From Bacteriovoracia bacterium (GTDB lineage Bacteria > Bdellovibrionota > Bacteriovoracia > Bacteriovoracales > Bacteriovoracaceae): a DNA stretch of 64,000 nt. A program made the position numbers and the translations under genes. Positions within the stretch are counted from its first letter, which is position 1; each line of letters opens with the position of its first letter. The stretch is from assembly GCA_030431635.1 (NCBI GenBank), contig JAUIIL010000008.1, positions 124,001 through 188,000 on the forward strand. The letters are read 5' to 3'. Below, in pieces: positions 51,521 to 63,972 of the stretch. Below the pieces are notes generated by a model. That model was not told where the DNA came from. It worked only from the letters and a program-made list of their open reading frames with translations, and searched no databases.

Positions 51521-51578
51521 AATTTAATGATTCAGTTATTATTGGAACATGTCAATATTTTAACGATTTTTTTAGAGT

Positions 51579-51764
51579 AGGCCTAGTGAGGGGTTTTTGA
51601 GAGTTTCGCGCCCCTGAAAATCAGGTGGGCGCAATGTAACCGCTTTAGGCTTCCCATTTATCTACCGGCATTTGCAAGTAGTTGGGCTTGCACACTACGA
51701 TCAGGGATGGCTCCCTTAAAAAAAGTTGTAGGGCGAAACCAGTCGTAACCCCTCAACTAAACCT
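51579..51764 (-). ncRNA. ssrS: Probable 6S RNA
   Basis: About 186 bases in a gene-free stretch. Read on the minus strand, the 5' end (AGGTTTAGTTGAGGGG) pairs with the 3' end (CCCCTCACTAGGCCT), continuing as TTTCGCCC with GGGCGCGAAA. The 3' half carries GGAAGCCTAAAG and then ACATTG..CCACCTGA followed by a hairpin. This recalls the E. coli 6S order GAAGCCTTAAAA, ACATTCACCTTGAA plus hairpin. Size, closed terminal stem and inner hairpins fit 6S. A TATACT -10 box lies 7 bases before the predicted start. tmRNA, RNase P and SRP signatures are absent. Confidence 0.6.
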
Positions 51765-51770
51765 TCCATC

Positions 51771-51943: not shown

Positions 51944-52004
51944 GCTGAAAAAGTACATAAAAAGGCTTAAGTTTTCAGCTTTGGTGAACGATAAGCTTGA
52001 AAAC
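51944..52004 (+). repeat. Overlapping inverted repeats before the Flp pilin
   Basis: GCTGAAAA (51944-51951) pairs with TTTTCAGC (51972-51979). The latter, as GTTTTCAGCTT, can instead pair with AAGCTTGAAAAC (51993-52004), which ends just before the GGAGAG ribosome site. The repeats overlap the sigma-28-like site, so they may act as DNA operator or as RNA in transcripts from the upstream promoter. Confidence 0.4.
51967..51994 (+). promoter_or_regulatory. Sigma-28 (FliA)-like promoter of the Flp pilin gene
   Basis: TTAAGTTT (51967-51974), 12 bases, AACGATAA (51987-51994): 7/8 and 6/8 matches to TAAAGTTT and GCCGATAA. The start would be near 52001, giving a leader of about 17 bases with GGAGAG before ATG 52018. 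Confidence 0.5.
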
Positions 52005-52017
52005 AGGAGAGAAACCT

Positions 52018-52209
52018 ATGAATGCGAAGATTTTAGAGTTTTTAGAAGATGAAAGTGGACAAACTTCCACCGAATATATTCTTTTACTCGTAATTGTTGC
52101 AATCTTAATTTTCAAAGTTGGTGGAAGGCTTAAAGAAGAGCTTCTAGGTTTAGTTGATAAGGTTTTCAAAAGCCAGGCGCTTAGTGATATTACCAATGGT
52201 AATATTTAG
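52018..52209 (+). CDS. flp: Flp-type pilin (class III prepilin)
   Basis: 63 residues, MNAKILEFLEDESGQTSTEY then a hydrophobic segment. The Gly-Gln-x-x-x-Glu-Tyr pattern before the hydrophobic helix is the class III prepilin cleavage region, with Glu at +5. The likely cutting enzyme is the A24 peptidase at 52517. ATG 52018 follows GGAGAG; the TTG at 51997 is upstream of that site and rejected. As the first gene of the Tad locus with its own strong promoter region, it is the best candidate for the major pilin. Confidence 0.87.
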   Translation: MNAKILEFLEDESGQTSTEYILLLVIVAILIFKVGGRLKEELLGLVDKVFKSQALSDITNGNI

Positions 52210-52269
52210 TTAAAACTTGAGTCCTTTACTTAACTTCCCAGCAATAATTTAAAAGAAATTAATTCTTAA

Positions 52270-52298
52270 TTCTTTCTTATGGCCAAAGTTCTTATAAT
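52270..52298 (+). promoter_or_regulatory. Promoter of the second Tad prepilin gene, leaderless start
   Basis: TTCTTT (52270-52275), 17 bases, TATAAT (52293-52298). The ATG of the next gene begins at 52305, 6 bases after the -10, so transcription should start at or next to the ATG. Confidence 0.5.
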
Positions 52299-52304
52299 AG
52301 AAGA

Positions 52305-52520
52305 ATGATTGCCAATAATAACTCAGGTCAAGCTTTACTTGAGTACATTATTATTCTTGTTTTTGTTGCTACCATTGGTAGCACAACCCTTGGCTATATT
52401 TTTAATTACATTAATGGAAGTATTGGGAATTTGAATCATATTCTCTCTCAAAACTTAAATGTAGGAGTTTGTTCAAGAAATTGTTTTTTTGAGGCTTATA
52501 AAAATGGGTATCGCCCATGA
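52305..52520 (+). CDS. Class III prepilin-like minor protein (71 aa)
   Basis: 71 residues with NNNSGQALLEYIIIL at the N-terminus, the same Gly-Gln-(3)-Glu-Tyr leader as the Flp pilin, then a hydrophobic helix and a short polar region with two Cys (CSRNC). Probably a minor pilin. Its stop overlaps the ATG of the peptidase gene by 4 bases. Confidence 0.75.
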   Translation: MIANNNSGQALLEYIIILVFVATIGSTTLGYIFNYINGSIGNLNHILSQNLNVGVCSRNCFFEAYKNGYRP

Positions 52521-53023
52521 TTCCACTTTGGATCTTTTATACACTTTTAATAGAGCTTTTTGTTGTATCCTATTTAGATATGACAACGAAGAGAATAAAA
52601 AATATTTGGGCGATAGTGAACCTTTGTTTTTTTCTCTTATTTCTCTTCATCTATCAAGATTTTTACCCTTTGGAATTGAAAACATTTAGCTATTCTCTTT
52701 CATTCTTATTCGTGGGGTTTGTTCTATTTTTAATGAGAATAATGGGTGCAGGGGATACTAAGTTTCTTTTTTCTTTTTTTTTAGTGACACCAGAGAATAT
52801 GCATTTTGATATTTATGTGAAACTACTGATCTTCACAGGTATCTGTGCTTGTATTTTTCTCATTTTTAATATTTTAAAAAATATGAAAAAGATTTACTTG
52901 AGTCTTTTAACGAGAGATCTTGTCGGTTTAAAGAATTGCTTTGGAACAAAGTTTGCTTTTGCTCCTGTTATTCTTATAACATGGATATGGATAGGAATTG
53001 AAGGAGGATATTTTGGTTTGTAA
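52517..53023 (+). CDS. cpaA: Tad prepilin peptidase (TadV/CpaA-like, A24)
   Basis: 168 residues, about five TM helices. Catalytic Asp in LDMTTKRIKN (near 20) and in the GAGDTKFLF motif (near 76). It lacks the N-terminal zinc module of full-length PilD, as is normal for TadV/CpaA. It sits between prepilin genes with overlaps on both sides, so expression is matched to its substrates. Confidence 0.87.
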   Translation: MIPLWIFYTLLIELFVVSYLDMTTKRIKNIWAIVNLCFFLLFLFIYQDFYPLELKTFSYSLSFLFVGFVLFLMRIMGAGDTKFLFSFFLVTPENMHFDIYVKLLIFTGICACIFLIFNILKNMKKIYLSLLTRDLVGLKNCFGTKFAFAPVILITWIWIGIEGGYFGL

Positions 53024-53315
53024 AAATCAAAAAGGCCAATCTGCAGTTGAGTATATCCTACTATTTGCCATGGTAAGTTTTATTGTTTTAACGATTTTTC
53101 AAAGCAAAGTCATTCAAGATTTTATGAGTGAAGATGGAACTTTCATTCAAGCGATGAAAGGTGACATGGAGTTTATGTACAGGCATGCACTTCCTGGACG
53201 GGATCAGCTTGGACAAGGACAAAATCAAATTAATTATAGTGCGAATACAAACCCTAGTTATCATGATGGTCAAAGCACACGCTTCTTTGGTCCAATTGAG
53301 AAGTATTCGAACTAG
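53013..53315 (+). CDS. Class III prepilin-like protein (100 aa)
   Basis: 100 residues from TTG 53013 (AAGGAGG just before it), starting MVCKNQKGQSAVEYILLF. The frame is open to TTG 52998, but that codon overlaps the ribosome site. The leader is nearly identical to the next protein's, also at DNA level. A hydrophobic helix follows and a Gln/Asn-rich tail. It overlaps the end of the peptidase gene by 11 bases. Confidence 0.7.
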   Translation: MVCKNQKGQSAVEYILLFAMVSFIVLTIFQSKVIQDFMSEDGTFIQAMKGDMEFMYRHALPGRDQLGQGQNQINYSANTNPSYHDGQSTRFFGPIEKYSN

Positions 53316-53324
53316 AGAGGAAAA

Positions 53325-53849
53325 ATGAATCAAAAAGGCCAATCAAGCATTGAGTTTATTTTAAGCATGGGATTTGTTTTTGCGATGTTTTTTCTTTTTG
53401 TTAACCAAGCTTTCAATTTTACAATCGGCTATCTTGGCCATTACGCGACCTTTATGGCCAGTCGTGCCTTTATGGCCCACGATAATGGTAGCATGAATAA
53501 TTATGGGAGCATTATGAATGATGCCCAAGTAATGGGAAGAAGGGTTTTTAATCGTTATCAACTTCCAGTGTTTATTGGAGAGTCTGCTGGAGAGGTACAA
53601 TTTAATAGACCTGATCAGGGAGTTTTTTATGAATTCACTGGTGCGTACTTTAGATTTCAAAGACCTTTTTCTACTTATAAATTTTTTGGTGGTGATGTTA
53701 AAATTGATTTATTAACAGAGTCGTTCTTAGGAAAAGAGCCAACCAGATATGAATGCCGTCAACAATTGTGTCAAGCTGTGAGTGGTGGAGAGTGTGGGGC
53801 CAATTCTGAGGTTTTAAAGCATTCAACTTTATATGATAATGGATGTTAG
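53325..53849 (+). CDS. TadE-like pseudopilin
   Basis: 174 residues, N-terminus MNQKGQSSIEFILSMGF (class III leader), a hydrophobic helix to about residue 30, then a soluble domain with four Cys near the end (CRQQLCQAVSGGEC..., final C174). TadE/TadF minor pilins are of this size and layout and are cut by the Tad peptidase. GAGAGG precedes the ATG. Confidence 0.75.
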   Translation: MNQKGQSSIEFILSMGFVFAMFFLFVNQAFNFTIGYLGHYATFMASRAFMAHDNGSMNNYGSIMNDAQVMGRRVFNRYQLPVFIGESAGEVQFNRPDQGVFYEFTGAYFRFQRPFSTYKFFGGDVKIDLLTESFLGKEPTRYECRQQLCQAVSGGECGANSEVLKHSTLYDNGC

Positions 53850-54383
53850 ATGAATAATAATAAAGGTCAGGCTCTTATTGAGTTTATTTTTTATCTTCCT
53901 GCACTCATGATTCTTTATTTCATTATTTTATCAATTGGAAATTCTATTAATGGTTCTATTAATCAACAAAAAGTTTCTCGAGGATACTATTTTGCAAGAA
54001 TAAAAAACAACTCCTACGTTCCTAAACCTGAATGGAATAGGGCCAATGGATACCCTGCTGATTGGCAGCTATTTGGAATGTCTGTATTGGGTTACAAAAT
54101 AAATACTTTCGGTGAGAGCGAAGAAGGAGATAACCCAGAGTCCGCTTGCTATAGAACTCCTCTGGCGAGTATTCCAACAAATTCTAGACAAATTGCTTCA
54201 AGTACTAATGCCCCTAAGGCACTTACAGATCCTGGTTGTGAAGAACCCTATGAGGAGCCTAGAACTCAAAACATTAGGGTTTATACAGTATTTGGAATCT
54301 GTGGGGCCACCTATCAAAATGTGGGGGGAGTTATCTCTGTTAGGTCGGATTCTTCTAATGTTCAAGGCTGTTTGATCAACTAG
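53850..54383 (+). CDS. TadE/TadF-like pseudopilin
   Basis: 177 residues, N-terminus MNNNKGQALIEFIFYLPAL (class III leader with Glu), one hydrophobic helix to about 30, then a soluble domain with paired Cys (C90, C129, C149, C174 approximately). It starts at the base after the previous stop. Together with the four other leaders, it forms a set of five putative peptidase substrates. Confidence 0.75.
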   Translation: MNNNKGQALIEFIFYLPALMILYFIILSIGNSINGSINQQKVSRGYYFARIKNNSYVPKPEWNRANGYPADWQLFGMSVLGYKINTFGESEEGDNPESACYRTPLASIPTNSRQIASSTNAPKALTDPGCEEPYEEPRTQNIRVYTVFGICGATYQNVGGVISVRSDSSNVQGCLIN

Positions 54384-54466
54384 GTAGTTTTTGCCACTGC
54401 GTTGTTTCTTTCTGCTCAATGATAAAATAAAAGTGAACAACTGTATCCTAAATAAAGGAATTTATT

Positions 54467-55294
54467 ATGAATAGCCGTGCATTTACGCTTAGTTTAATCA
54501 TTGCTGGTGTTGCCATGTTTATGGTTTGGTCTTACCTCGATGGTAAAGAAGCACAGTTTGTTGAAGAATACGGTGAACCAGTTGCTGTTGTTGTGGCCAG
54601 TGAAGATATTAAAGAGCTTGAACTCCTTGATGATAGAAAAGTTCAGACAATTAATGTTCCTAAAAAATTTGTTCAACCTGGGGCGCTTAAAAAAGTTGAA
54701 GAAGTTTATAATACATACGCAGCCGTTCCTGTTTTAAAGGGAGAGCAGATAACAAAGACTAGAGTTGTTCATCCTGGAGGAAGAACAGGACTCGCGAGTC
54801 AAATTGCCGTGGGGAAAAGAGCACTTTCAATCAGAGTTAATGATGTGACTTCAGTTGGGAAATTATTAAAACCAGGAGATAGGGTTGATGTTATTTCAAT
54901 GATTGACTATGCTGGTGGACGTAAAGATCGCCTGAAGGTGAAAACAGTTTTACAAGATGTCCTTGTTCTCTCAACGGGACTTAAAGTGACAAATGCCATT
55001 CCCTTAATTGGTCTCAAGCAAGCAGATGAGTTTGCTAAGAAAAATTTAAGTACTTACACCACATACAATACAGTTACTTTAGAGTTAACTCCTTTTGAAG
55101 TTCAAAAAATTGCTTTTTTAGAATCAATTGGAAGTTCTTTAAGGCTTTCTTTAAGAAATAATGATGACAAGAAAATAGAGAGAATTGGTGGCACAAGGAT
55201 GTTTGACGTTCTAGGTGAAGATGCGGGAGAAGCGAAGGCTTTTTTTGCTGAACAACAAGCTAGGGCAAGTCAAAATCAAAGAGGAGGCCGATGA
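54467..55294 (+). CDS. cpaB: Flp pilus assembly protein CpaB/RcpC
   Basis: 275 residues: one N-terminal TM (about 7-22), a SAF-type beta-clip domain (VAVVVASEDIKELELL near 38, PVLKGEQITKTRV near 86) and the RcpC/CpaB domain (GKRALSIRVNDVTSVG near 115, LKPGDRVDVISMI near 135). It is a periplasmic part of the Tad secretion channel. Its end overlaps the secretin gene by 4 bases. Confidence 0.9.
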   Translation: MNSRAFTLSLIIAGVAMFMVWSYLDGKEAQFVEEYGEPVAVVVASEDIKELELLDDRKVQTINVPKKFVQPGALKKVEEVYNTYAAVPVLKGEQITKTRVVHPGGRTGLASQIAVGKRALSIRVNDVTSVGKLLKPGDRVDVISMIDYAGGRKDRLKVKTVLQDVLVLSTGLKVTNAIPLIGLKQADEFAKKNLSTYTTYNTVTLELTPFEVQKIAFLESIGSSLRLSLRNNDDKKIERIGGTRMFDVLGEDAGEAKAFFAEQQARASQNQRGGR

Positions 55295-56781
55295 AACTTT
55301 TTCTATTATTCATAAGTTTTGCCCTATTTGCTCAAACTCCTAAAGTTCCTGAGGAGGAGCTTGAAGTAGAGCTTGGGATTGATAAACCAGTAAAACTGGA
55401 TTTTGCTTTCTCTACCAAAGTTTTGGTGGGAAATAACTCTGTATTAGACCTAACTCTTATTCCTCAAAGAAGAGAAGTTATCTTAAAGGGAATGAAAGAA
55501 GGAAAAACTTCTGTCACCATTAGAAATACAGTAGGTGACATAAAAAAACGCTATATCGTGAAAGTAAAATCTTCGGCCAATTCAAAAGTCGTGAAAGAAT
55601 TAAAAGAATTTCTAGGTAAAGTAGAAGGGTTAGAAATTGCCATTAAAGGTGGAAAAGTTGTTGTTGAAGGTTTTATTGTGGTTCCTGATGATATTGGTTT
55701 AGTTTCTATCATCCTAAGTAAGTACCCTGATGTCATAAATCTCGTTCAACTCTCTCCACAATCTCAAAGAGTGATAGCAAGAAAAGTTAAAGATGAATTA
55801 GGAAGAAATGGGCTTAAGGATGTGAACGTTAGGGTTGTTAATGGGACTTTTTGGCTTGAAGGTGTTGTTGGCAGTAATGAACAGAAAAAATTTGCAATGG
55901 ATATCGCAGAAGCCTATATCCCTGGGAGAATAACCTCTTTAAGAGAGAGAGCAGGAGAAGTAGGTGGTTCTATTCAAAATAGGGCCCCAATTATTAACTT
56001 TTTATCTGTAAATGAGAAAACTCAACCACCACCAGCGAAAAAAATGGTAAAAGTGACGACTCAATTTGTTGAGCTTTCAAAAGATTATCTGCGACAGTTT
56101 GCCTTCCAGTGGCAACCGCTAATCGGCCAGGATAATAGTTCTATTTCAATTAACAGAGATAGCGATGGGACAGTGAATACAAATTCAAGCAATACCTTGA
56201 GTGCAACAATTTCTAATCTTTTTCCAAAGCTAGAATCTGCTAAAAATGCTGGATACGCGAGGATTATTCAATCGGGTATGATTATTGTTCAAGATGGAGG
56301 GAATGCTGCTTCTTTGAAGAAAACATCAGTTATCAACTTCCCTGTGGGAAGTGGTGAGACACAAAGAGTTGTTAAGGCAGAGATTGGTTTTAGCTTAGAT
56401 GTGAACGCAAAAATTCTTGATCAAGAAAAAGTAGAGTTAGGGCCAAATATTTCCATTACTCTTAACTCTGGTACTGAAGCATCTCCTATCGAATCTAAAA
56501 ATGAAGTCAAAACGGTATTAGTTGTAAAATCAAAAGAATCCGCGGTTATAGGTGGTGTTGTTCAAGGTGAGTCAAGAACGGCTTATGATAAAAACCCTCC
56601 CTTTGGTGGAGGTGGAGCTCAAACAGATTCAGGAGCAACACCTTTATTTGATTTAACAAAATCTAAATCTTATACCAATCAAAAGAATCAGTTTGCTATT
56701 TTCATGACGCCAGAAATTATTGCTTCAGCTTCAGAGGGTAGTGAAGAAATTAGAAGAAAATTTAGAAAAAGAAGTAGGTAG
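55291..56781 (+). CDS. cpaC: Tad secretin CpaC/RcpA
   Basis: 496 residues: signal peptide (1-14), the pilus N-terminal secretin domain (about 30-90, KVLVGNNSVLDL), a BON-like segment (about 95-200) and the secretin domain (about 260-490) with GSGMI-like IIQSGMIIVQDG and the final KNQFAIFMTPEI. It forms the outer-membrane pore for the Flp pilus. Shorter final segment than PilQ. The CpaE-F fusion gene follows after 6 bases. Confidence 0.92.
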   Translation: MKLFLLFISFALFAQTPKVPEEELEVELGIDKPVKLDFAFSTKVLVGNNSVLDLTLIPQRREVILKGMKEGKTSVTIRNTVGDIKKRYIVKVKSSANSKVVKELKEFLGKVEGLEIAIKGGKVVVEGFIVVPDDIGLVSIILSKYPDVINLVQLSPQSQRVIARKVKDELGRNGLKDVNVRVVNGTFWLEGVVGSNEQKKFAMDIAEAYIPGRITSLRERAGEVGGSIQNRAPIINFLSVNEKTQPPPAKKMVKVTTQFVELSKDYLRQFAFQWQPLIGQDNSSISINRDSDGTVNTNSSNTLSATISNLFPKLESAKNAGYARIIQSGMIIVQDGGNAASLKKTSVINFPVGSGETQRVVKAEIGFSLDVNAKILDQEKVELGPNISITLNSGTEASPIESKNEVKTVLVVKSKESAVIGGVVQGESRTAYDKNPPFGGGGAQTDSGATPLFDLTKSKSYTNQKNQFAIFMTPEIIASASEGSEEIRRKFRKRSR

Positions 56782-56787
56782 TAGAAA

Positions 56788-58890
56788 ATGGCCGGACATA
56801 TTATTAGTGTAATTGGTGGAAAAGGGGGAGTCGGAAAATCTCAGTTTGCCGCCAATCTTGCTTTTGCCTTTGCTCAGGAGAATAGGGCCAAAACTCTTCT
56901 TCTTGATTTTGATCAAAAGGCCAGTGGGGATCAAAACCTTATAACTGGTATGCGCTCCAAAAAGACAATAAAAGATTTATCTGAGTTTAATGGAGCGATC
57001 GATCCGAGAACAATCATGCAATTTATTACAACTCATAAAATGGGAGTTTCTTATATAGGAATGCCAAACGATCAGACAGCTGCCTCTCAAATAAATGTTG
57101 ATGGTCTAGGAAAACCACTAAAGGCCATGCAAAATCTTTTTCCTGTAACTGTTATTGATGTTGGAAGTGAGTTAAATGATCTAACTCTTAAGGCCTTGGA
57201 GTTTTCTACCCTTATTTTTATAGTGGTAACTCCAGACTTATTGGCAGCGAACCAAACAAAGAGACTTTATTCGGAACTGATCACAATGCTTTTTCCAAAA
57301 GAAATGCTTCAAGTTGTAATGAATAGCTATGTGAAAGGACATCCTGTAAGCCCAGAAGTGATAGGTCGCCAAATCGGAAAACCTGTTTTTTCAATTTTGG
57401 CCAAAGATGAACAAACATGTGCGGGAGCTTTATCAAGAAGTACTCCAGTCATGGCCGTGGCCAAGAATTCTTCTTACGCAAAATCAGTTATTGAAACTGT
57501 TAGGAAACTTAATCAAAAAAATGTTTTAAAAGCGTTAGAGAAAATTGCAAAACCAGAGAGTGTCGGGCAGAAAAAAGAGAAGGGTGATTCTAAAACTCAA
57601 GAGAAAGCTTCTAATGCTTGGAATGCATTAAAAGTGAGAATTCACCGTTCACTAGTGGAAGAGATGGATCTTAAAAAAACGGATGATAGTGATCCAAAGG
57701 CAAAAATCATTTTACGAGAGCAAACAAAAAAACTTGTTGTTGAGCTTTTAGGTAAAGAAGATACCAAGGGAATTCTTAATACTAGAGAAGATATGAACAA
57801 AGTGGTGAAAGAGATACTTGATGAAGCTCTTGGACTAGGACCACTCGAGGATATGTTGGCCGATAAATCAATTTCTGAAATTATGGTCGTTGGCCCAGAT
57901 AGAATTTTCTATGAACAAAGTGGAAAAGTAAAAATGAGTGATGTTGTTTTTACGAGTGATAGGCAAGCCCTTAACGTGATTGAAAGAATTGTTGCTCCTA
58001 TTGGTCGAAGGATTGATGAAAAAACTCCATATGTGGATGCAAGACTTCCTGACGGTTCAAGAGTTCATGCGATTATCCCCCCTTGTTCTCTTGATGGATG
58101 TACAATTACAATAAGAAAATTTCCAGAAAACAGACTCACTTATAAAGATCTCGTCAAATTTGGTTCAATGACTGAAGCCATGGCCGATTTTTTAAGAATT
58201 TCTGTTGAAGCCCACCGAAATATTGTTGTTTCTGGTGGAACTGGTTCAGGGAAAACAACTTTAATTAATATGTTAGGTGGGTTTATTCCTGCAAATGAAA
58301 GAATTATTACCGTAGAGGATTCAGCAGAACTTGATTTTCCTCAAGTTCATGTGGTGAGACTTGAAACAAGACCTCCTTCATTAGAAGGTGATGGTGAAAT
58401 TGATATTAGAACTCTTGTGAAGCAAACTTTGAGGATGAGACCTGATAGAATTGTGGTTGGAGAGTGTCGTGGTGGTGAGACTCTTGACATGCTTCAAGCG
58501 ATGAACACTGGGCACGATGGTTCCATGACAACAGTTCACTCAAATAGTCCAAGAGATGCGATGAGCAGGTTAGAAACTCTTGTTCAGTATGCAGGTGCTG
58601 GTTTATCACCCAAAGCGATTAAGGAGATGATAGCCTCAGCAGTTCATATGGTTATTCAACAATCTCGTCTAGAAGATGGTTCGAGAAAAATTTTAAATAT
58701 AACAGAAATTGGTGGAATGCAGGGAGAAGTGATCACCCTTCAAGATATTTTTACTTACAAGCAAGAAGGAATGAGTAAGCAAGGAAAGATTGAAGGCAAA
58801 TTTCAGGCTTCGGGGTTCATTCCTAAATTTATAGAGACTCTTGAAAAGAAAGGTTACAAAGTTCCTCGTGGACTTTTTTCAAATACTTAG
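56788..58890 (+). CDS. CpaE-CpaF (TadZ-TadA) fusion ATPase
   Basis: 700 residues, two ATPases that are usually separate genes. Residues 1-250 are MinD/ParA-like: GGKGGVGKSQFA (deviant Walker A with Lys12), LLLDFDQKASGD near 39 and TVIDVGSEL near 119; this is the TadZ/CpaE localisation factor. After a charged linker (about 250-290) comes a complete TadA/CpaF secretion ATPase: EIMVVGPDRIFYE near 365, Walker A GGTGSGKTT near 483, the Asp-box region and RIVVGECRGGE near 552, then TTVHSNSPRDA near 579. No stop or frameshift separates the halves. Confidence 0.92.
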   Translation: MAGHIISVIGGKGGVGKSQFAANLAFAFAQENRAKTLLLDFDQKASGDQNLITGMRSKKTIKDLSEFNGAIDPRTIMQFITTHKMGVSYIGMPNDQTAASQINVDGLGKPLKAMQNLFPVTVIDVGSELNDLTLKALEFSTLIFIVVTPDLLAANQTKRLYSELITMLFPKEMLQVVMNSYVKGHPVSPEVIGRQIGKPVFSILAKDEQTCAGALSRSTPVMAVAKNSSYAKSVIETVRKLNQKNVLKALEKIAKPESVGQKKEKGDSKTQEKASNAWNALKVRIHRSLVEEMDLKKTDDSDPKAKIILREQTKKLVVELLGKEDTKGILNTREDMNKVVKEILDEALGLGPLEDMLADKSISEIMVVGPDRIFYEQSGKVKMSDVVFTSDRQALNVIERIVAPIGRRIDEKTPYVDARLPDGSRVHAIIPPCSLDGCTITIRKFPENRLTYKDLVKFGSMTEAMADFLRISVEAHRNIVVSGGTGSGKTTLINMLGGFIPANERIITVEDSAELDFPQVHVVRLETRPPSLEGDGEIDIRTLVKQTLRMRPDRIVVGECRGGETLDMLQAMNTGHDGSMTTVHSNSPRDAMSRLETLVQYAGAGLSPKAIKEMIASAVHMVIQQSRLEDGSRKILNITEIGGMQGEVITLQDIFTYKQEGMSKQGKIEGKFQASGFIPKFIETLEKKGYKVPRGLFSNT

Positions 58891-58899
58891 GAAAAGAGG

Positions 58900-59793
58900 A
58901 TGGATGCTTTTTTTATTCATATTTTAGGAAAGATGGGCACAGCAGCTTCAGTTGCTCTACTTTTTTTCTTTTATGCATATAAAAATAGTGAAAAATTATT
59001 CAAATGGTTTGAAGAGCAAACCTATGGGACAAGAGATTATGTCATGAATAAGTGTGAGCTTATTCATTACGAAATTGAAGAAAGGAAGATTACTTACATT
59101 CTTCTGCTCTTAATCTTTGGTCCTCCTGTGATTTTTATTAGTTCTTTTTCTTTATTTGGTTATTTTGGTTTTGGTTTCTTTTTAGGTGTTGTTTTTGGTT
59201 TTGTAGGTTGGAAGCTTCCTCGACCCTTTATGGATTTTTTAGAAAAAAGAAGACAAAAACAATATGAACAGCAGATGGTAGATGGACTTAATTTGTTATC
59301 TAACGGATTAAGGGCAGGACTATCCCTTCCTCAATCGTTAGGAATGGTTATTGATGAACTCCCAGCTCCTATTTCAGAAGAGTTTAATCTTGTTTTACAG
59401 CAAAATAAAATTGGAGTTCCATTGGAGGAGTGCTTTGAAGATCTTGTGAGAAGAGTTCCGACAGAAGATAATGAGATGTTTGTGACAAGTGTAAATATTC
59501 TAAGGGAAACCGGTGGTAATCTTTCTGAGGTTTTTGATACCATCACTGATATTATCCGTGAGAGAATTAGGCTTAAGCAAAAAATCGAAGCTTTTGTTGC
59601 TCAAGGTAAGTTTCAAGGGGGAACGATTTTTTCAATGCCTTTCATTTTGTTAATAGTTTATAGCCAAATAGATCCTGACAATTTTGTTTTGATTTGGACT
59701 CACCCAGCTGGGATTATCATGATGATTGTGGCCCTCGGTCTAAACTTATTAGGGGGTTACATGATTTTAAAAGTGACAGAAATAAAGGCGTAA
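58900..59793 (+). CDS. tadB: Tad pilus inner-membrane platform protein (TadB-like, T2SF domain)
   Basis: 297 residues: two TM segments in the first 110 residues, a cytoplasmic T2SF helical domain (about 128-250, LLSNGLRAGLSLPQSLG near 135 and ETGGNLSEVFD near 203) and two TM helices at the end. Normally a TadB/TadC pair forms the platform; only this one is visible. It follows the fusion gene by 9 bases. Confidence 0.88.
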   Translation: MDAFFIHILGKMGTAASVALLFFFYAYKNSEKLFKWFEEQTYGTRDYVMNKCELIHYEIEERKITYILLLLIFGPPVIFISSFSLFGYFGFGFFLGVVFGFVGWKLPRPFMDFLEKRRQKQYEQQMVDGLNLLSNGLRAGLSLPQSLGMVIDELPAPISEEFNLVLQQNKIGVPLEECFEDLVRRVPTEDNEMFVTSVNILRETGGNLSEVFDTITDIIRERIRLKQKIEAFVAQGKFQGGTIFSMPFILLIVYSQIDPDNFVLIWTHPAGIIMMIVALGLNLLGGYMILKVTEIKA

Positions 59794-59809
59794 ATAAGAC
59801 AAGAATGAC

Positions 59810-59837
59810 TAAAGTTACTTGGTATGATGACCGATAA
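59810..59837 (+). promoter_or_regulatory. Sigma-28 (FliA)-like promoter of the YD-repeat gene
   Basis: TAAAGTTA (59810-59817), 12 bases, ACCGATAA (59830-59837): 7/8 and 7/8 matches to the enterobacterial FliA consensus with one extra spacer base. It is the best such site in the window and lies 46 bases before the ATG. Confidence 0.6.
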
Positions 59838-59883
59838 TAGTATGAGAAAATAAAGAGAGTGACTTCTTTATAAGGATAGAGAA

Positions 59884-61527
59884 ATGAGAAATTTTAGCAA
59901 GTTAATGATCTTCTTTGTAACAGCTTCAGCTTTTGCGGGTGTTAACCTAAAGAATGGAAATTTTTATATTTCCTATACTGATATTGTTGTTCCTGGGGGA
60001 GGGAAGAAACTTGAAATTACGAGAACCTATAACTCAAAAGCAACTGACATGGGATGGTTTGGTTTTGGTTGGGGATCTCCCTATGAAACGAGACTAGAAC
60101 TTTCAGCGGATGGTTCTGTGGTTGTTCATGAGAATGGTGCAGGGGGGAGAACTCGTTTTACCCCTAAAGCAAAAATCGATCCTGCTTCTGCTGCTGAAAA
60201 AATTGTAAGCGCAATGAGAAAGAAAACAACTATTACTGATGAAGCAGCAAAAAGACTTATTGATAGATTAAAATCAAATGCTGAACTAAGACATCAGTAC
60301 GCTCTTAATTTTGGAGTTAAATCAAAACTTTCTGATGGAACAGTTTTGTATTCAAATGAGAGAGGTTTACAAGAGTTACATAAACTAAAATCTGGTTTTA
60401 TGAGATCCTTTAACGATGGAAACAAAGAATATTTTGATGAAAAAGGGCGTCTCATCAAATCTGAAGACAAAAACAAGTATTCTGTTAGTCTTACTTACAA
60501 TAAAACGGGAGAACTTGAGGCGATTAAAGATTCTCAAGCAAAACAACTTTTCTTCAGCTGGTATCCAGATGGGCGCGTTAAGCATATTTGGTCAGCAGGG
60601 GATAAGAAAACGTTGTATAAGTATAAAGAAAAAGATCTCACTTATTCTCAGGATATAGCAGGAAACGTTTATAAGTATGAATATGATAAAAATCACAATA
60701 TGGTTGTTATTGATTATTCAGAAAATAAAAACGCTAAGGGTCGTGAGAAAATGACGATTGATTACGAACCAAAAACATTTTTTGTTTCAAAAATCCAAGA
60801 CAGAAATGGTGATGTGACAAAATATAAGTATGGTTCTGATCCAAAAAATCCAGATCTTCACTATTGGACAGACGTGACGAAGAAAGGTTTTGATGGAAAA
60901 GAGTTAACGAACAAGTACGAGTATGAAATCAGAACTCGTCCAGATGGATCTCAGTACACTTATAGAATTGCAACAAAAATTAATAATATTGATACGGAAA
61001 CAATTTATTCAGAATGTTGCGGTCTTCCTCTAAAAATTTCAAGAGGTAAGCATGTAACTAATTTTGAATACAATGACAAAGGTCTTCTGACGAAGAAGAA
61101 CTCAACCCGTGGTGATTTTGTTAAAATTGATTACGATAAGCAATTGAACAAAATAGCCAAAGTTGAAAACAATGATGGTTGGACTAAGTTTGACTATGAT
61201 GGAAAAGGAAACCTAAAGAAAGCAGTCAATAGTAAAGGAAAAGCTGTTCTTCTTATTTATGATAGAAAAGGTCGTATTACAAAAATGGTAGATCAGGATA
61301 AGAAGAGTAATAAGAGAAGAACTCTTGCTTTTACTTATAATGCCATGGGGAAACCAGTTGAAATTGAAATGGATAAAGTTGGTAAAATTGATGTTAAATA
61401 CGATAATTATGGAGAGATTAAGAAAGTCGAGTCTAAGGCAGGTCATAAAATGGCCCTTCAAGTGACTCAAGCTTTCCAAAATTTGCTCTCAATTGTTAAG
61501 CCAGCAGGTGTTAACCTAAATATGTAG
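59884..61527 (+). CDS. Secreted YD-repeat (RHS-type) protein, probable Bd0109 counterpart
   Basis: 547 residues: signal peptide (1-18, ending AFAG), an N-terminal DUF6531-like region (GGGKKLEITRTYNSKATDMGWFGFGWG, in parts, near 37-60) and YD/RHS-type repeats from about 190 to 530 (SVSLTYNKTGELEAI, YKYEYDKNHNMVVIDY, FDYDGKGNLKKAV, LLIYDRKGRITKMV). There is no C-terminal toxin domain or RHS core end, so it is unlike a polymorphic toxin. Placed directly after tadB and before a tiny secreted-protein gene, as I recall for bd0109/bd0108 of B. bacteriovorus. It may bind sugars or pilus components. Confidence 0.8.
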   Translation: MRNFSKLMIFFVTASAFAGVNLKNGNFYISYTDIVVPGGGKKLEITRTYNSKATDMGWFGFGWGSPYETRLELSADGSVVVHENGAGGRTRFTPKAKIDPASAAEKIVSAMRKKTTITDEAAKRLIDRLKSNAELRHQYALNFGVKSKLSDGTVLYSNERGLQELHKLKSGFMRSFNDGNKEYFDEKGRLIKSEDKNKYSVSLTYNKTGELEAIKDSQAKQLFFSWYPDGRVKHIWSAGDKKTLYKYKEKDLTYSQDIAGNVYKYEYDKNHNMVVIDYSENKNAKGREKMTIDYEPKTFFVSKIQDRNGDVTKYKYGSDPKNPDLHYWTDVTKKGFDGKELTNKYEYEIRTRPDGSQYTYRIATKINNIDTETIYSECCGLPLKISRGKHVTNFEYNDKGLLTKKNSTRGDFVKIDYDKQLNKIAKVENNDGWTKFDYDGKGNLKKAVNSKGKAVLLIYDRKGRITKMVDQDKKSNKRRTLAFTYNAMGKPVEIEMDKVGKIDVKYDNYGEIKKVESKAGHKMALQVTQAFQNLLSIVKPAGVNLNM

Positions 61528-61563
61528 GCCAGGCAAAAACAGTAAAGAGAGCAGGAGGAAATA

Positions 61564-61752
61564 ATGAAATTAGTACTTTTAACGGCCATTCTAGTAAGCT
61601 TTGTTTCAATTTCTCAAGTGAAAGCTGAGGATTGTGAGACGCTTTTTGATGGAAACAGAAGTGTTTCAGGAAAAGGTGGAGATGCTCCTAAAGAGACAAA
61701 GTGTAAAGATGCTGATGGTAATGAAATTGAGTGTTCAACAACACAAAAATAA
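61564..61752 (+). CDS. Tiny secreted protein, positional analog of Bd0108
   Basis: 62 residues: signal peptide (1-21, cut after VKA), then a mature part of about 41 residues with three Cys (EDCETLF, TKCKD, IECST), Gly- and Lys-rich. Strong AGGAGGA ribosome site 6 bases before ATG. It starts 36 bases after the YD-repeat stop, so both should be on one mRNA, which ends at the terminator at 61791-61818. No family recognised. Sequence homology to Bd0108 is not visible to me; the analogy is by position, size and export. Confidence 0.65.
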   Translation: MKLVLLTAILVSFVSISQVKAEDCETLFDGNRSVSGKGGDAPKETKCKDADGNEIECSTTQK

Positions 61753-61790
61753 TTACTGAACGATATTTTATTTTTTAAAGTTATATTGAA

Positions 61791-61818
61791 AAACCCACTC
61801 ATTTAAGTGGGTTTTTTT
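61791..61818 (+). terminator. Intrinsic terminator after the tiny secreted protein
   Basis: ACCCACT and AGTGGGT (7-bp stem, 6-base loop) followed by seven T. It ends the Tad/YD-repeat transcript. The 137 bases to the next gene hold AT-rich DNA and no strong promoter that I can identify. Confidence 0.9.
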
Positions 61819-61955
61819 GTTTTCATCTCTGTTGACCACTTTTAATGAATGAAAATGTCTAAAAATGGAACAGTTTTTTATAAAGATTTTAGTCAGTACT
61901 AATAATAATTACAATTCATTGTGCTTTTTTTTCATAAGCATCTTATGATGAATTT

Positions 61956-62669
61956 GTGAAATACCTTTTATTACTGTTATTGATTTCATCCAGCTATGCA
62001 GATTTATTATATAAGTCCTGCACTTCTGATCATAAGCCAACTTGTTTGAAGGTGACTTCAGATAAAAAGCGATATGATGTTTTCTTTGATGGCCCCATCA
62101 ATTCTTCTAGCTACTCTCTAGCTAAAGAAGCCCTCGGTAAAATTCCTGATAATGAATCATTTACTCTTTATTTGAATTCAGGAGGTGGCGAAACCTCTTT
62201 AGCAGAAAAAATAGGAAGGCTCGCCACATCTAAATGTGAAAAAAAACAATACCTTTACTTTGGTAAACCTTACTGTAAAAAGTGTGAAGTTACGACAAAA
62301 GTGGACGAGGGAAATAGATGTGCTTCTGCCTGTGTGGGAGTCTATACCGCTGGTCATGTGAAAGATTATGAAACAGAAGCTAAATTTGGCTTTCACCGAA
62401 GTTCAGACTTATTTTATCCAGAAGCCGGAACCTTTACTATTCGTCGCGGTGGTGGAGATGAGCAAATTATTATTACAGAGGAATCCTTGCGAAGAAAAGG
62501 TCGAGAGGAGATGATTAAGAGCTTAATAAAGTGGAATGTAAATCAAGCTTTTATCGATAAGCTTGATTCTTTAGGAGCTCTTGAGAGAAAAGAGATGACT
62601 TATCTGAGGCCCCATGAGCTTCAAGATTCAGGGATTTTGGATAATTCTTTGCTGCCATATTGCGAGTGA
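61956..62669 (+). CDS. Periplasmic ClpP/crotonase-fold protease-like protein
   Basis: 237 residues with a signal peptide (1-15; GTG start). A ClpP-like fold is indicated by LYLNSGGGET (71-80, the oxyanion glycine loop), CASAC with Ser124 as the expected nucleophile, and FGFHRSS with His147. Cysteines at about 22, 30, 94, 107, 110, 122 and 126, several in pairs, suggest disulfides in the periplasm. It resembles COG3904-type periplasmic proteins. It sits between the two tiny secreted-protein genes; whether it processes them is speculation. Confidence 0.7.
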   Translation: MKYLLLLLLISSSYADLLYKSCTSDHKPTCLKVTSDKKRYDVFFDGPINSSSYSLAKEALGKIPDNESFTLYLNSGGGETSLAEKIGRLATSKCEKKQYLYFGKPYCKKCEVTTKVDEGNRCASACVGVYTAGHVKDYETEAKFGFHRSSDLFYPEAGTFTIRRGGGDEQIIITEESLRRKGREEMIKSLIKWNVNQAFIDKLDSLGALERKEMTYLRPHELQDSGILDNSLLPYCE

Positions 62670-62803
62670 GCTGTCTTAGGAAGGATGAGATTTTTGTTCA
62701 TTTTCTAGTCAAAAGTTAAAAAATTGATATAAATAAAAAATATTTACATAGTTGAAATCCAGTTATTTCAAAAGGTTACAATGGTTCTTTAAAAGGGCTT
62801 TAT

Positions 62804-62820
62804 TGGCACAAGTCCTGCAA
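62804..62820 (+). promoter_or_regulatory. Sigma-54 (RpoN)-like promoter of the second tiny secreted protein
   Basis: TGGCAC (62804-62809), 5 bases, CTGCAA (62815-62820). The invariant GG and GC are separated by exactly 10 bases, and only one position differs from TGGCAC-N5-TTGCA. It lies 43 bases before the ATG at 62864, the right distance. Confidence 0.6.
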
Positions 62821-62863
62821 ACAATAAATAGCAAAACAACTAAACCATCAAGGAGAGTGTTTT

Positions 62864-63028
62864 ATGAAAGCTTTATTTTTTGTATTTGCTTTAGTTTTAT
62901 CTTTTTCTTCAGCGACACACGCTATCGAAGTGTATGACCAAGATTGCTCTTCAATTAGCAATGTTACTGGTTCAAAAGAAGTAAAGAAAGAAAGTACTGA
63001 TAGAGATCCATCAGCAACAGGACAATAA
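62864..63028 (+). CDS. Second tiny secreted protein (54 aa)
   Basis: 54 residues: signal peptide (1-20, cut after THA), then a mature part of about 34 residues starting IEVYDQDCSSI, one Cys, then a charged low-complexity tail ending ATGQ. AAGGAGA lies 7 bases before the ATG, and a sigma-54-like promoter further upstream. It shares with the 62-residue protein at 61564 the layout (signal, Asp-Cys, Val-Ser/Thr-Gly, Lys-rich tail), but homology is not proven. The 61-codon frame at 62752 in another phase is a shadow. Confidence 0.65.
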   Translation: MKALFFVFALVLSFSSATHAIEVYDQDCSSISNVTGSKEVKKESTDRDPSATGQ

Positions 63029-63417: not shown

Positions 63418-63972
63418 TTAAACCTCGATATTGCTATGAGAGTTTTGAATTTCAAAATACAGGTGACAAGGAATCTGACGCTCTTGTGTCTCTAGATGAT
63501 AAAGAGCTTCAATTAGAAGAGAATTCTCTTTGAACTTTTCAATTTCCTTTAAAAGAATTGAACCTTTAGCTTCTTTTGAAAGAAGCTTTGGTGGAGTAAT
63601 ATAGCAAAGCGTATCTTCATCGTTTTCAATATTAGTCATGATTTTACCCAAAAGGATATTCATTGCTTCAACATAAAGGCCTTGGATAAAATTATACTTT
63701 TCCTTGCTGCGAGCAAAAGAGACAATAGGTGATTCGCAGATAACAAATCCCTTAAGTTCTCCAGTTATACCAAAGGAGATGACCATAGAGATTTCATTAA
63801 ACTCATAGTTTTTGATAACTTCTTTCTTTTCAACATGAATCTTTGTTAAATTGGCCCTTTGATATATTTGAATATTTTCAGGAAAAACAGAATTAATATC
63901 AGTAATAATATTCTGATTCTCTAAAAGAGTAGGGTTGAACTTCTTAGAACTTCTTTTTAATAGTTTCATCAT
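63418..63972 (-). CDS. CheX/CheC-like domain protein
   Basis: 184 residues. A central alpha/beta region reads like CheX/CheC phosphatases: MVISFGITGELKGFVIC near 65, then a helix with GLYVEAMNILLGKIMTNI near 95 (similar to the EIxNxxxG element) and LCYITPPKLLS near 122 (the I..P.V strand). The catalytic Glu-Asn pair is changed here (Glu-x-x-Asn appears as EAMN), so activity is plausible but unproven. If active it would dephosphorylate a CheY-type regulator. The gene starts 28 bases from the window end. Confidence 0.5.
   Translation of the reverse strand: MMKLLKRSSKKFNPTLLENQNIITDINSVFPENIQIYQRANLTKIHVEKKEVIKNYEFNEISMVISFGITGELKGFVICESPIVSFARSKEKYNFIQGLYVEAMNILLGKIMTNIENDEDTLCYITPPKLLSKEAKGSILLKEIEKFKENSLLIEALYHLETQERQIPCHLYFEIQNSHSNIEV

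Follow-up and report, generated by a model that had tools for sequence, protein, structure and literature searches.

Does the predatory family Bacteriovoracaceae possess a counterpart of the host-interaction (hit) locus of Bdellovibrio, bd0108/bd0109, and, if so, what do its small secreted proteins have in common? The question is raised by a 64,000-nucleotide (nt) stretch from a Bacteriovoracia bacterium (GenBank GCA_030431635.1, contig JAUIIL010000008.1, positions 124,001-188,000 of the forward strand; hereinafter, the window), which contains a gene for a secreted YD/RHS-repeat protein (the YD protein) followed by genes for small secreted proteins. A preliminary description, made from the letters alone, had proposed that this is the hit module in another predator lineage. 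The central features are the following (aa, amino acids):

59884-61527, + strand: YD/RHS-repeat secreted protein, 547 aa, Bd0109 orthologue by reciprocal best hit; PF20148 and PF05593 matches; signal peptide identified by eye
61564-61752, + strand: small secreted protein A, 62 aa, in a Bd0108-like position; signal peptide, AGGAGG, three cysteines in the mature part, C-terminus ECSTTQK
61788-61817, + strand: intrinsic-terminator-like hairpin, 12-pair stem followed by a T run
61956-62669, + strand: secreted protein of 237 aa between the A and B genes, absent from the locus of the nearest relative (no match in L121)
62864-63028, + strand: small secreted protein B, 54 aa; signal peptide, GGAGAG upstream, one cysteine, C-terminus DPSATGQ

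The open reading frames of tadB, the YD protein and the 62-aa protein, as well as the terminator-like stem-loop, lie where the preliminary description had placed them, and profile matches confirm the cpaB, cpaC and cpaE-F genes that it had named upstream. The A gene begins 36 nt past the YD stop codon and has a strong Shine-Dalgarno sequence. The range given for the module, up to 63028, takes in B, the second small secreted protein, whose gene stops there, but the text omits it.

The YD protein is, as judged by sequence comparison in both directions, the orthologue of Bd0109. Specifically, it has one match in the B. bacteriovorus HD100 genome, the Bd0109 locus (35% identity, E 6e-80), while Bd0109 has one match in the genome carrying the window, the YD protein (E 3e-79), so that the two are reciprocal best hits with 33-35% identity. 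A second RHS protein was looked for in the window genome, and none was found. The order cpaB-cpaC-cpaE-cpaF-tadB-YD is the same in the window and in HD100 (locus L116), and the order from cpaB to the YD gene is also the same in B. exovorus and three further families. The HD100 protein adjoining the YD gene has 101 aa and agrees with published Bd0108 in length, first mature residue, last residue and CXXC positions, consistent with the placement of bd0108 near 97.0 kb in HD100 (PMC11323537). Thus, the reciprocal search and the comparison of Tad-YD-small-protein order with HD100, both suggested in the preliminary description, came out in its favour, and neither a better reciprocal match nor another RHS gene elsewhere in the genome speaks against it.

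An AlphaFold2 model of the YD protein, calculated from a 51-sequence alignment, has a predicted local distance difference test (pLDDT) score of 90.4 and a predicted template modelling (pTM) score of 0.86. The model contains a predicted RHS-type beta shell, a long C-terminal helix and no toxin domain. The best solved matches in Foldseek are the cores of Rhs effectors (7q97, E 2e-22), and the template modelling (TM) score with 8qja_C is 0.62, normalised by query. The predicted beta-shell fold is therefore one that the YD protein has in common with Rhs/YD-repeat toxins and teneurins (7q97, 8qja, 8h8a); unlike them, it is about half the size, is without a toxin domain and has small partners that are separately encoded. 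Because of the RHS repeats, the small gene directly downstream and the predicted fold, the locus might be taken for a polymorphic toxin of the Rhs type paired with a small immunity protein. However, the end of the protein, a helix and tail with a PAG/PAT motif, is conserved across the 51 sequences, no Pfam domain beyond DUF6531 and RHS repeats was found, and the small proteins have signal peptides and a disorder-type composition, unlike cytosolic immunity proteins. We give this reading hardly any credence, and rejected it on the lack of a variable C-terminal toxin domain after the core and on the conserved end.

The small proteins are found throughout the phylum. Signal peptides were called by our own heuristic, and a few calls are expected to be wrong. 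Of 235 good genomes from the phylum, 228 have a Bd0109-type match; for the window's family, the figure is 40 of 41. Among 187 distinct YD loci of the phylum with enough downstream sequence, the YD gene is followed by at least one small signal-peptide protein in 179, by at least two in 143 and by at least three in 50. A small signal-peptide reading frame starts at most 250 nt downstream in 93 of 101 YD loci, versus 27 of 261 control reading frames. Cysteine occurs in the mature part of nearly all A and B proteins (79/79 and 67/67 in the window's family, 36/38 and 31/31 in Bdellovibrionaceae; 213/215 in total). Large hydrophobic residues make up 13-17% of the small proteins versus 32% of the YD protein, which is of the disorder type as far as composition goes. 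A proteins are about 35% identical where YD proteins are 85-90% identical, indicating very fast evolution.

The module adjoins Tad genes wherever we looked, except for the second copy in B. exovorus. That copy, in strain JSS (L118), is a further Bd0109-like gene at a distance from the Tad genes; the gene after it encodes an 85-aa CxxC secreted protein. This second locus has already been published (PMC4267844). The proximity to Tad genes, the near-universal occurrence in the phylum, the failure to obtain a Bd0109 deletion and the co-transcription of bd0109 with Tad genes (PMC3818213) would all suit a role of the YD and small proteins, phylum-wide, as accessories in Tad pilus structure or assembly, the link to prey-dependence being a consequence specific to Bdellovibrio. 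We consider this rather unlikely, as loss of bd0108 alters type IVa pili and growth mode in Bdellovibrio (PMC3818213), and as the small proteins change unusually fast for assembly factors.

As the preliminary description had stated, window A has no detectable similarity to Bd0108 (1.3 bits against a Bd0108-type profile, with the decoy 99% point at 6.0). The cysteines of window A are in the contexts EDC, KC and EC, with no CXXC motif; CXXC is present in some other Bacteriovoracaceae A proteins, and in B. bacteriovorus strain W the CXXC region is reported not to be conserved either (PMC4267844). B was found by a Bacteriovoracaceae small-protein profile that has B itself among its members. Within Bdellovibrionaceae, the A and B profiles are related to each other (score 12.3, null maximum 6.5, mature parts), and a C(xxC)...[D/N]-T-N-P-like stretch in common is visible by eye in some species. 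A further, unlinked small-protein copy is present in 7 of 10 Bdellovibrio genomes searched, HD100 included. The HD100 copy (L344, C1:407445-407609, minus strand) encodes a secreted protein of about 60 aa that ends in NSGIQ; the profile match is weak in HD100 (E 0.003) and strong in others (down to 2e-11). Neither the window genome nor genus g24 yielded a convincing unlinked paralog. In one single-contig Bdellovibrio genome (G126, L194), the Bd0108 orthologue appears frameshifted, as in prey-independent isolates, with its downstream neighbour intact.

What the small proteins of one locus have in common is their C-terminal end. The likeness was noticed by reading the sequences first and was tested afterwards. 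For example, A, B and C within a single locus have the endings VVPE/VVPQ/VVPQ (L030) or STTAQ/VTAQ/VTAQ (L102); further like ends are PATVR/GTIVR (L023) and KGGTR/YNGTR (L039), and the endings differ between loci. When A and B of 60 loci are compared over their last six residues, the BLOSUM62 score is 7.4, versus 0.2 +/- 0.6 under permutation of loci, and in this set the concordance is significant separately in the window's family, genus g24 and Bdellovibrionaceae. In an enlarged set of 143 loci, it reaches z=17.4, and after thinning the loci at 75, 65 and 60% YD identity, z is 9.0, 6.1 and 5.4, respectively. Segments farther inward than the last six residues of A and B have little or no concordance.

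The like ends might also have arisen without a common reader, through gene conversion, through recent duplication or because of shared composition. The small genes are indeed in tandem, and some B and C proteins are recent paralogs with a likeness reaching farther inward. The A-B effect, in contrast, is limited to the last ~6 residues. 3' untranslated regions (UTRs) are no more alike within loci (0.286) than between loci (0.280), and the same codon is used at identical residues at a rate of 0.44, versus 0.39 expected; gene conversion is therefore unlikely. The endings find no match among the other genes of their loci (P 0.08), and the concordance is lost once the six residues are put in random order or read one residue out of register, which excludes a bias of composition or genome. 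None of gene conversion, composition and phylogeny accounts for the concordance, and an origin of this kind is, in our view, improbable.

We infer a common binding partner from the position of the signal at a free C-terminus and from its dependence on residue order and register. The last ~6 residues may thus be a common C-terminal recognition tag. The reader of the tag is likely a third partner rather than the YD protein, because no column of the YD alignment stands out and because residues 89-101 of Bd0108 are unaffected by Bd0109. Specifically, in a nuclear magnetic resonance (NMR) titration, Bd0108 residues 24-66 respond to Bd0109, while residues 89-101 do not (PMC4267844). In the host-independence mutation that occurs most often, Bd0108 loses residues 73-86 in frame; the C-terminus is kept and pili are more numerous, while loss of the whole bd0108 results in few pili (PMC4267844, PMC3818213). 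These phenotypes fit a linker between two binding ends, without proving one. The concordance is statistically strong, its meaning is a matter of inference, and no earlier description was found in the literature consulted.

Taken together, we think it somewhat probable that the window locus corresponds, in Bacteriovoracaceae, to the hit locus and works by the whole of the following mechanism. The YD protein would be exported and form a small RHS-type beta shell, as predicted, at the envelope beside the Tad/pilus machinery. A and B would be ligands that are exported, carry cysteine and are for the most part disordered; they would belong to one fast-evolving kind, whose Bdellovibrio members would be Bd0108 and its 66-aa downstream neighbour. 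With their N-terminal, cysteine-bearing part, A and B probably bind to the YD shell or plug it, in keeping with the measurements on Bd0108. Their last ~6 residues would be a tag that is specific to the locus and is recognised by one partner common to them, which is probably something other than the YD protein. To judge from Bdellovibrio genetics, the YD protein and the small proteins would set the extent of pilus extrusion and thereby report prey status. The 62-aa protein A may then do the job of Bd0108, by analogy. That the small proteins form a phylum-wide class, in which the last ~6 residues serve as a fast-changing, genome-specific address tag read by a third partner and not by the YD shell, is a proposal that we hold to be evenly balanced between right and wrong.

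Several observations weigh against the counterpart mechanism and its tag. On the Bdellovibrio A and B profiles, the scores of window A and B do not exceed those of decoys. Profile-profile comparison (hhalign) of mature A proteins from Bacteriovoracaceae and Bdellovibrionaceae gives 6.3 versus a null maximum of 6.6, which is not significant, and the same is true of the mature B proteins of both families. In searches across families using hidden Markov models (HMMs) with decoys, 9/67, 7/67 and 4/79 proteins are above the decoy 99% point, where 0.7-0.8 are expected, a weak family-level enrichment. We regard the small proteins as a single functional class, whether or not they are of common descent. 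As for the tag, the window's own A-B pair (STTQK/SATGQ) fits the pattern, although taken singly it does not reach significance (84th percentile among pairs drawn from different loci). None of 466 YD columns co-varies with the tag beyond the expected tail, and the unlinked Bdellovibrio paralog does not significantly follow the tag of its own genome (P about 0.3; five genomes, which are too alike).

The preliminary description had regarded a positional analog outside Bdellovibrio as novel. Such an analog is already in print: in B. marinus SJ, the Bd0109 homologue BMS_0182 (35% identity) has the small signal-peptide neighbours BMS_0183/4 (Prehna et al. 2014, PMC4267844), with no significant homology to Bd0108 (PMC4267844). 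Synteny of bd0109-bd0113 was reported in all Bdellovibrio and like organisms (BALOs) examined (PMC5430801), and arrays of two or three short secreted genes were reported beside Bd0109 homologues in Bdellovibrionales bins (PMC10469934). The counterpart reading is thus correct but not the first of its kind. Compared with the HD100 hit locus (PMC3818213, PMC4267844), the window has the orthologous YD protein and the same Tad gene order; in both, the YD gene is directly followed by that of a small secreted protein with a disorder-type composition, and a second small secreted protein is encoded farther on. In contrast to HD100, the small proteins of the window are not alignable to Bd0108, A is without CXXC, and an extra gene, for the 237-aa protein, stands between A and B; host-independence mutations and YD binding are known from the Bdellovibrio locus. 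Like the window, B. marinus SJ has a Bd0109 homologue and two small secreted neighbours; the window comes from a different genome, in which a further gene separates the small ones, and the C-terminal concordance was not noticed in 2014. The activated-sludge Bdellovibrionales bins resemble the window in having two or three signal-peptide genes (57-133 aa) near Bd0109. Those arrays, however, sit beside Bd0103/Bd0109 homologues in the order Bdellovibrionales, with no tag and no Bacteriovoracaceae described (PMC10469934).

The 237-aa secreted protein has no match in Pfam or NCBIfam; by eye, its SGGG...CASAC stretch is like that of ClpP-like serine proteases. In two other loci (L120, L122), a different, unrelated gene, aldehyde-dehydrogenase-like by eye, is likewise inserted between the small paralogs.

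The host genome of the window has 3.32 Mb in 19 contigs (G000; the window is in contig C17). From 51997 to 63028, the Tad pilus genes, the YD gene and the small secreted genes are all co-directional (+). The Tad set comprises three flp-like genes, TadV, two minor-pilin-like genes, cpaB, cpaC, a cpaE-cpaF fusion and tadB; three Tad-linked flp genes with TadV have been described for Bacteriovorax and Halobacteriovorax (PMC5430801). The genes upstream of the YD gene are the following:

51997-52209, + strand: flp pilin gene 1; Flp_Fap match below cut-off (E 2e-4); 66% identity in the nearest relative (G034)
52305-52520, + strand: flp-like pilin gene 2; QALLEYIIIL motif; 52% identity in G034
52517-53023, + strand: tadV/cpaA prepilin peptidase; PF01478 Peptidase_A24 over cut-off
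52998-53315, + strand: flp-like pilin gene 3; weak Flp_Fap match; position kept in relatives
53325-53849, + strand: minor-pilin-like gene, 174 aa; pilin N-terminus QSSIEFILSMGFVF; weak HD100 match in the same position (E 1e-5)
53850-54383, + strand: TadE-like minor pilin, 177 aa; PF07811 TadE match below cut-off (E 0.007)
54467-55294, + strand: cpaB/rcpC; TIGR03177 over cut-off
55291-56781, + strand: cpaC/rcpA secretin; PF00263, PF13629 and BON over cut-off
56788-58890, + strand: cpaE-cpaF fusion ATPase, 700 aa; profile matches to a CbiA/ParA part and a T2SSE part
58900-59793, + strand: tadB inner-membrane platform protein; PF00482 over cut-off

The Tad cluster lacks TadC. Far from it, a second single-domain T2SSF protein (G000:C14:49325-49699, in a 318-aa frame) is a candidate for this component. 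A 6S RNA gene (Rfam RF00013, 56 bits) lies just upstream of the first flp gene (51575-51767, minus strand), and a 184-aa protein with a sub-threshold CheC-like match is encoded past the module (63418-63972, minus strand).

Bd0108 is the best-known switch of obligate predation and has so far been handled as an orphan, with Bd0109 its one known partner. It is now set in a class of tandem relatives found phylum-wide. What is new here is that the small secreted proteins of one genome's locus have matching last few amino acids, hinting at a partner that reads them. This shared C-terminal feature, which is free by NMR when Bd0109 is bound, raises the question of what reads the tag; if the proposal is true, the hit locus would be a three-part tag-and-reader system.

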